From contig JAGNHN010000036.1 in NCBI GenBank assembly GCA_018001695.1, positions 1 to 36,723 of the forward strand: a stretch of 36,723 bases of DNA. Direction: 5' to 3'. This stretch comes from Lentimicrobiaceae bacterium (GTDB lineage: Bacteria > Bacteroidota > Bacteroidia > Bacteroidales > JAGNHN01). The notes under the pieces were generated by a model. That model ran no database searches and was not told the origin of the DNA. It worked only from the letters and a program-made list of their open reading frames with translations. Numbering within the stretch: position 1 is the stretch's first letter; the number at the start of each line of letters is the position of its first letter. Positions 34,880 to 36,723 of this stretch are shown piece by piece. The position numbers and the translations under genes are program-made.

Positions 34880-35896
34880 ATGAAATCAATGTCCTACCCC
34901 AAAAAAGTTGTGATCGGTGACATCACCGTGCGTGATGGTTTTCAGCATGAAGAGAAATTCATACCCACCGAGGCCAAGATATGGGTGGCAGAGGAATTGG
35001 TCCTGGCCGGTGTCAAGCATATCGAAGTCACAAACTATGGTAATCCCAAGGGCATGCCGCAGTTCAGGGATGCCGACGAGGTGATGAAGGGGATCCGCAA
35101 CAGCAAGCGGATCGGGCATCTGTTGTCCGATGTGAGCATTACCACGGTCACCATCCGTGAAAAGGCCGTCGAGCGTGCCATACAGGCCCGTAAGGACGGG
35201 TATGGGCCGGACAGGATACTGCTGATGGTGTCCACCAGCGAGACCCACCATCGGAAGAACTCAGGTCTGAGCCTGCAGGAATACTGGAAGATGGCGGAAA
35301 AATACATCCCGATGGCCCGCGATGCCGGCATCAAGGTCAACGGAACCGTGAGCACCATCTGGGGATGCCCGATGGAAGGCCCAACGGAGATGAAGGATGC
35401 CATCGCATTTACAAAGCGGTGGCTGGATATCGGCGCCAGCGATGTCGAGCATGCCGATCACGACGGTTCTGCCTCTCCGGACAGGGTGTATGCTTATTTT
35501 TCTGAATTGCTGGACGCCATTCCGAAGCCAGAGAAGCACATCGTGCACCTGCATACCACCAGGGGCTGGGGATTGGCCAATGTCCTGGCCGCATTACAGG
35601 CCGGCATGACCAATTATGAATCAACGCTGGGCGGTATCGGCGGACAGCCGGCCAATTTTGTCGATGGTGTCCCGGTAGCCGGCACAGGCGAATACTATTA
35701 CCGCGATCCGAACATCGTTGGCCTCGTCAGCACTGAAGACATGGTGGTGATGATGGATGAAATGGGCATTGATACCGGCCTCGACGTGGACCATATCCTG
35801 CGCCTGGGCGCCATGGTAGAGCGCATCGTGGGCAGGCGCCTGCGTTCCGAAAGCATCCGCAACGGCAGGGTACAGAAGAAGGGGAGTATGCAGTGA
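34880..35896 (+). CDS. HMG-CoA-lyase-like TIM-barrel enzyme with altered active site
   Basis: A DRE-TIM superfamily protein of 338 residues (HMGL-like domain about 10-295). It keeps R18-D19 (TVRDGFQHE), His223 and His225 (VHLHTTRG), and the STED segment (E286, D287). Classical HMG-CoA lyases have HCHDTYG, a catalytic Cys in GLGGCPYA and an Asn in GN-ATED; here the sites read HLHTTRG, GIGGQP (Gln256) and GLVSTED (Leu). So metal and aldol-cleavage chemistry may persist but the Cys loop is gone. In context it should cleave or form a CoA ester of a 3-hydroxyacid. I start at the ATG (34880) instead of the TTG six bases upstream. The stop codon lies in the repeat array. Confidence 0.85.
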   Translation: MKSMSYPKKVVIGDITVRDGFQHEEKFIPTEAKIWVAEELVLAGVKHIEVTNYGNPKGMPQFRDADEVMKGIRNSKRIGHLLSDVSITTVTIREKAVERAIQARKDGYGPDRILLMVSTSETHHRKNSGLSLQEYWKMAEKYIPMARDAGIKVNGTVSTIWGCPMEGPTEMKDAIAFTKRWLDIGASDVEHADHDGSASPDRVYAYFSELLDAIPKPEKHIVHLHTTRGWGLANVLAALQAGMTNYESTLGGIGGQPANFVDGVPVAGTGEYYYRDPNIVGLVSTEDMVVMMDEMGIDTGLDVDHILRLGAMVERIVGRRLRSESIRNGRVQKKGSMQ

Positions 35897-35910
35897 TCGC
35901 TGACCGGTGT

Positions 35911-36290
35911 GAGATAATTAGGAATTAGGAATTAGGAATTAGGGATTAGGAGTTGGAAATCAGGTAAATACGAATTACAAATTACGAATTACGAATTACG
36001 AATGATTGCTGATCGCTTTGAGATAATTAGGAATTATGAATTAGGAATTAGAGATTAGGAGTTGGAAATCAGGTAAATACGAATTACAAATTACGAATGA
36101 TTGCTGATCGCTTTGAGATAATTAGGAATTAGGAATTAGGGATTAGGAATTGGAAATCAGGTAAATACGATTTACAAATTACGAATTACGAATGATTGCT
36201 GATCGCTTTGAGATAATTAGGAATTAGGAATTAGGGATTAGGAATTGAAAATCAAATAATTACGAATCACGAATTACGAATGCTTGCTGA
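35911..36290. repeat. four tandem AT-rich units (about 95-109 bp)
   Basis: Units begin with GAGATAATTAGG at 35911, 36020, 36115 and 36210 (periods 109, 95, 95). Each has a run of GAATTAGG repeats, a GGAAATCAGGTAAATACG spacer (diverged in the last unit), a run of ACGAATT repeats and, in the first three units, a GATTGCTGATCGCTTT end. Copies differ by point changes and by the number of short inner repeats. Confidence 0.88.
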
Positions 36291-36330
36291 AAACTGATCG
36301 CAGACAACTGATCGCTGATAACTGACCGCT
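36286..36330. repeat. CTGATCGCTG-type tract, first copy
   Basis: Imperfect tandem units of the form AACTGATCGCTGA/ACCGCTG lead from the AT-rich units into the first 118-bp element. Confidence 0.75.
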
Positions 36331-36448
36331 GGTGCACCCAACCCCGTAAGGGTGGTATATTGGTAGCCCGGCGGAATAACCACAGTATCAATCCCCCTCC
36401 CATGACCGGCGATGATAGTTGCATGATGGTGATTGGGAGGGGGGCAGG
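36331..36448. repeat. 118-bp GC-rich element, copy 1
   Basis: The element begins GGTGCACCCAACCCC and ends GGGAGGGGGGCAGG. It matches copy 2 at 116 of 118 positions by my reading (differences in the GTAAGGG/GTAGGGG loop and in GCATG/GCTTG). It contains a ten-base inverted repeat, CCCCCTCCCA (36393-36402) with TGGGAGGGGG (36434-36443). Confidence 0.88.
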
Positions 36449-36457
36449 GGGGAGGGG
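36435..36457 (+). other. G-quadruplex-type G-run
   Basis: Four runs of three or more G (3, 6, 6 and 4) are separated by A, CA and A at the junction of the 118-bp element and the next AT-rich unit. This fits the loose quadruplex pattern. Its right arm also pairs in the element's hairpin, so the two structures would compete. Confidence 0.55.
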
Positions 36458-36540
36458 AGATAATTAGGAATTAGGAATTAGGGATTAGGAAATGGAAATC
36501 AGGTAAATACGAATTACAAATTACGAATTACGAATGATTG
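36457..36540. repeat. fifth AT-rich unit
   Basis: The unit begins with GAGATAATTAGG right after the G-run and contains the same GAATTAGG, GGAAATCAGGTAAATACG and ACGAATT parts as the first four. Confidence 0.85.
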
Positions 36541-36605
36541 CTGATCGCTGATCGCTGACCGCTGATCGCTGTTCGCTGTCAACTGATCGCTGACAACTGA
36601 TCGCT
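36537..36605. repeat. CTGATCGCTG-type tract, second copy
   Basis: A longer run of CTGATCGCTGA/CCGCTG/TTCGCTG variants links the fifth AT-rich unit to the second 118-bp element. Confidence 0.75.
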
Positions 36606-36723
36606 GGTGCACCCAACCCCGTAGGGGTGGTATATTGGTAGCCCGGCGGAATAACCACAGTATCAATCCCCCTCCCATGACCGGCGATGATAGTTGCTTG
36701 ATGGTGATTGGGAGGGGGGCAGG
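36606..36723. repeat. 118-bp GC-rich element, copy 2 (at window edge)
   Basis: It starts 275 bases after copy 1 and reaches the window end with the same GGGAGGGGGGCAGG close, so a full element is present. Copy 2 has a perfect ACCCC-GTA-GGGGT stem near its start, which one base change weakens in copy 1. Confidence 0.88.

Follow-up and report, generated by a model that had tools for sequence, protein, structure and literature searches.

A genome-wide composite repeat in a Lentimicrobiaceae bacterium, with a hairpin-bearing GC-rich element nested in heptanucleotide tracts

The small dispersed repeats (SDRs) of Nostoc, reportedly described by Elhai et al. in 2008, are said to be small, hairpin-forming cyanobacterial repeats of 21–27 nt that often lie in tandem heptamers. 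Heptanucleotides are the commonest longer tandem repeat of bacteria, with reports from Cyanobacteria, Beggiatoaceae and some Bacteroidetes (PMC4679880, PMC4692102). Those known as STRRs in cyanobacteria and as TAACTGA repeats in Beggiatoaceae, Cyanobacteria and Bacteroidetes are intergenic, consist of 7-bp units in which related heptamers are mixed, are patchily distributed and have contigs ending in them (MacGregor 2015, PMC4679880). The REP and REPIN sequences that go with TnpA-REP (RAYT) proteins are intergenic hairpin repeats that form genome-specific families grouped around a Y1 transposase gene and have a (G)TAG motif adjacent to the hairpin (PMC3733652, PMC6006769, PMC3116915). TnpAs of subclass 1.2 (Y---Q--HH), found in Cyanobacteria and Bacteroidetes, are listed without REPs (PMC6006769). 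BrickBuilt, a MITE of the Bacteroidota species Porphyromonas gingivalis with about 19 copies, is a composite intergenic element in which tandem repeats (23-bp unit) lie within a non-autonomous element with inverted-repeat ends (PMC4596501).

The locus described here is like the STRR and TAACTGA repeats in all of these respects, and its tracts include TAACTGA, but it differs from them in having a fixed three-part order at dozens of sites and a nested 120-bp element. It resembles the Nostoc repeats, as described, in carrying hairpin repeats within heptamers, whereas its element is about 120 bp long. The likeness to REP and REPIN sequences lies in the intergenic hairpins, their genome-specific families grouped around a Y1 gene and the adjacent TAG; the size of the element sets it apart, as do two further differences given below. 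BrickBuilt is similar in its composite build and copy number, and differs, as described, in its repeat unit and ends.

The window, meaning the whole stretch of DNA analysed, is a contig of exactly 36,723 bp (C46; JAGNHN010000036.1), and the array reaches its end, inside the second copy (b) of a GC-rich element. The features are:

34886..35896, + strand, HMGL-like gene (PF00682), the last gene before the array (context)
35894..36723, + strand, whole composite array, starting in the TGA that ends the HMGL-like gene and running past the contig end
35894..35912, + strand, first TGATCGC-type heptamer stretch (TGATCGCTGACCGGTG...), whose TGA is the stop codon of the gene (ORF end 35896)
35916..36003, + strand, heptamer unit 1: (AATTAGG)n, then AATCAGG-like, then (AATTACG)n
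36022..36091, + strand, heptamer unit 2, without GC element
36110..36192, + strand, heptamer unit 3, without GC element
36210..36285, + strand, heptamer unit 4
36286..36331, + strand, TGATCGC/TGATAAC/GACAACT heptamer tract 5' of GC element copy a (Tandem Repeats Finder)
36327..36455, + strand, GC-rich element copy a, 58% GC, one of about 17 copies in the genome
36342..36366, + strand, REP/IS200-like hairpin and tail CCCCGTAAGGGTGGTATATTGGTAG of copy a, with one stem mismatch
36393..36443, + strand, second hairpin, with arms CCCCCTCCCA (36393-36402) and TGGGAGGGGG (36434-36443), from the sequence and the DNA fold
36435..36457, + strand, G-quadruplex-type motif GGGAGGGGGGCAGGGGGGAGGGG
36457..36534, + strand, heptamer unit 5, which matches unit 3 at 98% identity
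36535..36606, + strand, TGATCGC heptamer tract 5' of GC element copy b (Tandem Repeats Finder)
36602..36723, + strand, GC-rich element copy b, truncated where the contig ends
36617..36641, + strand, REP/IS200-like hairpin and tail of copy b, intact, CCCCGTAGGGGTGGTATATTGGTAG

A sequence-only reading had proposed a composite, nested array with units of 95–109 bp, and the array is real: Tandem Repeats Finder gave periods of 7, 14, 95 and 109, and a repeat search recovered the long units at register spacings of 109, 88 and 95, together with a 163-bp duplicated block at a spacing of 275. The lag-7 self-match of the array is 0.527, which is 17 s.d. above shuffles, and lag 14 is also high. The microsatellite unit, first read as 8 bp, is 7 bp; AATTAGG and AATTACG, read in overlapping registers, account for GAATTAGG and ACGAATT, and what was given as CTGATCGCTG resolves into the 7-mer TGATCGC, interspersed with TGATAAC and TGACAAC. 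There are five AT-rich units, each ordered AATTAGG, AATTACG, TGATCGC. The fixed alternation of element types had been overstated, as four heptamer units come first and only then do two blocks of tract plus GC element follow, with one heptamer unit between them. Likewise, the description of the units as AT-rich suits the heptamer units (31% GC) and not the GC element (58% GC; window, 49%). It had been noted that copies of the 118-bp element disagree at two positions only and that the spacers differ, and both points were borne out, with 2 mismatches over 122 bp (36349, A/G; 36423, A/T) and identity at 34 of the 42 bp that precede the copies.

This apparent local oddity belongs to a genome-wide composite repeat family, whose GC element occurs in either orientation relative to the heptamers. 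When the rest of the genome was searched, as the first reading had proposed, a 129-bp query retrieved about 17 substantial copies of the GC element on 11 contigs (80–98% identical), and the AT unit gave 49 matches; the window array is one of more than 20 dispersed places. Surveys covered 400–750 kb of contigs, and 22 arrays were mapped on 14 contigs, all 22 of them intergenic and most with a single heptamer strand. Among these, the GC element is confined to heptamer arrays, heptamer units also occur alone (as they do in the window), and truncated remnants of the GC element are present in the genome. Most of the units inspected elsewhere share the same internal order, which in heptamer orientation is AATTAGG, AATCAGG, TAATTACGAATTACG, GATTGCTGATCGC, so the fixed order within the unit is a genome-wide property of the heptamer unit.

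The GC element follows the heptamer strand on contigs C46, C58, C35, C79, C11 and C94 (group A) and is opposite to it on C45, C70, C51, C56 and C85 (group B). Mean identity is 92% within group A, 87% within group B and 83% between them, and in a tree of the copies group B falls on a single, modestly supported branch (74). Copies at the same locus can be 100% identical (C51b/c, C11a/b and C56a/b), and copy b of the window and the copy on C58 have the same core sequence. Such near-identity within loci, and the match to a copy on another contig, support the recent duplication or gene conversion that had been suggested from the window alone. An alignment of the GC copies with their flanks showed no terminal inverted repeat such as a MITE of a DDE transposon would have, and the surrounding tandem repeats would mask any target-site duplication.

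The best explanation of the repeat, and one that we favour with some reserve, is that heptamer tracts in the cyanobacterial style carry a nested, REP-like, non-autonomous element, the whole being neutral or selfish DNA between genes and the element looking like a small parasite. The first layer would be a directional tandem heptanucleotide scaffold (AATTAGG, then AATTACG, then TGATCGC) of the STRR kind, growing and shrinking by slippage and unequal exchange, and the second a non-autonomous element of about 120 bp nested in that scaffold. The array region holds no gene, and is thus not a complete autonomous IS200/IS605 element with tnpA.

The first reading had proposed a search of other Bacteroidota for the GC element; none of 98 related genomes contained it, the genus-mate G001 among them, nor was it matched in plasmids and phages (blastn) or in viral contigs (pattern search). 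The AT unit had no match in G001, and had many weaker matches in G017, a genome of another family. G001 has heptamers of its own (ACTAGCC, AACATAG and AGATATC) and palindromes (GTCTGCCGCAGGCAGAC). When lags of 2–30 were scanned, 7 and its multiples stood out in the intergenic DNA of this genome, of G001 and of samples from 20 other Bacteroidota genomes, with almost no period 7 in coding DNA, and the heptamer sequences differ from genome to genome. A 7-bp tandem unit in intergenic DNA, here both in the array and genome-wide, is the hallmark of the STRRs, and the period-7 results fit the published heptanucleotide reports. A clean empty site was sought in G001 at two loci and none was found: past the HMGL-like gene, G001 has different genes next in line as well as heptamers and palindromes of another kind, and the region upstream of leuS has a different neighbour gene and lacks the array.

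These data can also be read as pure heptamer expansion, in which slippage during replication and recombination from tract to tract make and spread the arrays, with the GC element a passive passenger homogenised by gene conversion and no transposase involved. Such an account would be consistent with the dominance of period 7 in intergenic DNA of all samples and the genome-specific heptamers, with identical or nearly identical copies within a locus, and with GC copies never lying outside heptamer tracts. It is harder to reconcile with the two orientations of the GC element relative to the scaffold, the fixed internal order at most dispersed sites, and the transposase-associated hairpin and tail at the left end of the element, and we regard it as unlikely, if still the most serious competitor to a nested REP-like element.

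An origin as an assembly artefact, in which the array or its copy number at the contig end would be a collapsed or chimeric join of repeats belonging to several loci, had been named at the outset as a result that would overturn the sequence-only reading. The contig does end within copy b, the core of that copy equals the C58 copy, and some other arrays contain N gaps. Arrays also lie near contig ends more often than by chance, with 12 of 27 places (on contigs of known length) within 1.5 kb of an end compared with about 6% expected, a rough figure because the list of contigs was partly chosen for such repeats. However, the same composite occurs inside the long contigs C58, C11, C70, C51, C56 and C85, between intact genes, and these interior copies argue that the GC element itself is real, which makes an artefact very improbable as a general explanation. 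The length and copy number of the window array are uncertain, and the arrays break the assembly.

The array carries no visible coding or tRNA function, in agreement with what had been stated from the sequence; no ORF of at least 100 aa is listed inside it, no tRNA or tmRNA was found in the region, and an Rfam search of the region returned zero matches. A structured-RNA reading was dropped because the single-stranded DNA fold predicted for the GC element is unexceptional (z = -0.97, no better than shuffles) and the copies are too alike for covariation. A functional 3'-end element was weighed separately, in which hairpins, a G-quadruplex and stops in all frames would end transcription or translation or guard the mRNA ends of the upstream gene. 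The HMGL-like gene has its stop codon at the very start of the array, and elsewhere several heptamer units likewise start no more than a few bases from a stop codon; the second-hairpin arms are conserved in an alignment of the copies, and the motif GGGAGGGGGGCAGGGGGGAGGGG is present in all copies that are not cut short. The orthologous HMGL-like gene of G001, though, lacks the GC element and has its own heptamers and palindromes downstream, arrays are also found where genes are arranged differently, some of them ahead of gene starts, and the unremarkable fold and lack of an Rfam match also weigh against such a function, which we consider distinctly unlikely.

What points to a REP-like element is the left third of the GC element, which comprises a short hairpin and tail (CCCC-GTA-GGGG...ATATTGGTAG) with a C(GTA)G loop, a layout like that around genes for IS200-like single-strand TnpA (Y1) proteins of Bacteroidota. 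Within it, CAACCCCGTAGGGGTGnnATATTGGTAG is almost invariant among the copies. Discovery that the elements were known transposon parts had been another stated refutation, and this applies to a limited extent: the GC element looks related to IS200/REP-like hairpins over roughly its first third only, and the rest is without a known relative. A search for the 25-base core CCCCGNAGGGGNGNNATATTGGTAG (up to 3 mismatches) gave 24 places in the genome, of which 16 are in GC elements, 7 are in tandem beside a Y1 gene and 1 is elsewhere; a control pattern gave 0. The Y1_Tnp gene (C6:25602-26060) has this 7-copy tandem directly downstream, in units of about 55 bp with a core 2 mismatches off the pattern. 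The genome has four Y1 genes, which are mutually divergent, with no near-identical multiples.

The C6 Y1 protein scores 89 bits against PF01797, and its sequence also matches transposase chains of solved structure, among them 2fyx and 2xm3, the latter being the ISDra2 TnpA. Its motifs (DHVH and YIANQEQHH), and the YxxxQxxHH of most relatives, fit subclass 1.2 and not the YxxxNP of class 2 (RAYT). The hairpins beside it differ from that of the GC element in loop (GAA vs GTA) and tail (AATGATAG vs ATTGGTAG), and because of these differences the C6 protein need not be the partner of the GC element.

Repeated hairpin families were found in the non-coding flanks at 21 of 30 loci of the C6 Y1 and its relatives (the best protein matches, this genome's own included), whereas control segments taken from these genomes had them in 2 of 57 cases, so that, as in a REPtron, repeats of one family lie beside a Y1 gene. 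The controls came from the first contig of each genome and average 423 nt of non-coding DNA against 690 nt at the Y1 loci, and among those with at least 600 nt non-coding, 1 of 11 was positive; since the loci are best protein matches and the controls have less non-coding DNA, the contrast should be taken as indicative, not exact. At the 29 loci from other genomes, hairpins of the C(GNA)G/C(GNNA)G type reach 14.5 per 10 kb versus 0.59 in controls. DNA hairpins of the C(GNA)G type are unusually stable. Among 101 unique hairpins at these loci, a TAG at +7 to +12 occurs on the 3' side in 39 and on the 5' side in 10. A hairpin followed by AATATTNGTAG (9/10) was found 24 times in 85.6 kb of Y1 loci (10 of 29 loci) and 0 times in 238 kb of controls, and the window element, read by eye, scores 9/10 for AATATTNGTAG and has GGTAG about 10 nt 3' of its hairpin. 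Here lie the two remaining differences from REP and REPIN sequences: the TAG is about 7–12 nt 3' of the hairpin, whereas the GC-rich hairpins of REP sequences have a GT[AG]G at their 5' foot, and the Y1 proteins carry the class-1 motif YxxxQxxHH of subclass 1.2, reported without REPs (PMC6006769). That survey counts against the proposed partnership and, because it lists the subclass without REPs, the association of TnpA subclass 1.2 with hairpin repeats may be new.

For the nested REP-like element, we envisage that a Y1 transposase of the subclass 1.2 type would act on the hairpin and would have copied or moved the element, probably in single-stranded form; recombination or slippage in the heptamers would later have enlarged the array in tandem. 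The present data show neither a transposition event nor an empty site nor any target-site feature. Also against this mechanism are the ordinary single-strand fold of the GC element, the different hairpins beside the C6 gene and the finding of the core in G368, described below, with no intact partner Y1. The main interest of the repeat is this possible link, which would connect small dispersed hairpins and tandem repeats of period 7, both little-understood parts of bacterial intergenic DNA, with a candidate enzyme from a single-strand transposase subclass that had lacked a DNA partner.

A pattern scan of named genomes found the core CAACCCCGTAGGGGTGnnATATTGGTAG in other Bacteroidota as short intergenic repeats, with the rest of the element absent. 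G368 has 6 exact copies of the core, and the search for a partner Y1 there gave only a partial, weak match with no such hairpins nearby. A broader proposal is that Bacteroidota have a hitherto unrecognised REP-like system in which subclass 1.2 TnpAs (YxxxQxxHH) each propagate a genome-specific family of mini-hairpins, whose loops are of the C(GNA)G type and which have AATATTNGTAG as a 3' tail. In that case the 118-bp element would be a composite derivative settling in heptamer tracts, in parallel with the SDR-in-heptamer arrangement of cyanobacteria, the other phylum with the subclass. We hold this proposal to be plausible but tentative, the chances lying somewhat against it; if true, a class of repeat that fragments Bacteroidota assemblies becomes predictable, and the enzyme testable.

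Several minor observations concern other palindromes and tracts. A different palindrome family (ACGCGTCTGAAGACGCGC) surrounds a Y1_Tnp gene of the genus (C67:1-3000), and the same Y1 in G001 (C16, ~40837-41034 +/- 1.5 kb) has CGCGTCTGTGACGCG, the family being apparently conserved within the genus. A third Y1_Tnp gene (C11:38000-41000) is flanked by GGACTCCCgccaGGGAGTCC palindromes, with relatives near the C79 array. On a Bernardetia plasmid (NZ_CP147018.1, 53960-54430), an annotated IS200/IS605 tnpA has, by eye, a hairpin and AATATTNGTAG upstream, with loops AGA and AGC that the strict GNA-loop rule missed. Heptamer tracts on C6 (423-507) and C84 (L075, L026) are followed near contig ends by a common sequence (...gaaacgattacgtgattaataatgcctaacacatacagac...) that is possibly another repeat or mobile element. 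Finally, heptamer units often start within a few bases of an apparent same-strand stop codon (L026, L031, L039, L045 and position 35894 of the window), and AATTAGG, AATTACG and TGATCGC tracts tend to hold stops in several frames.
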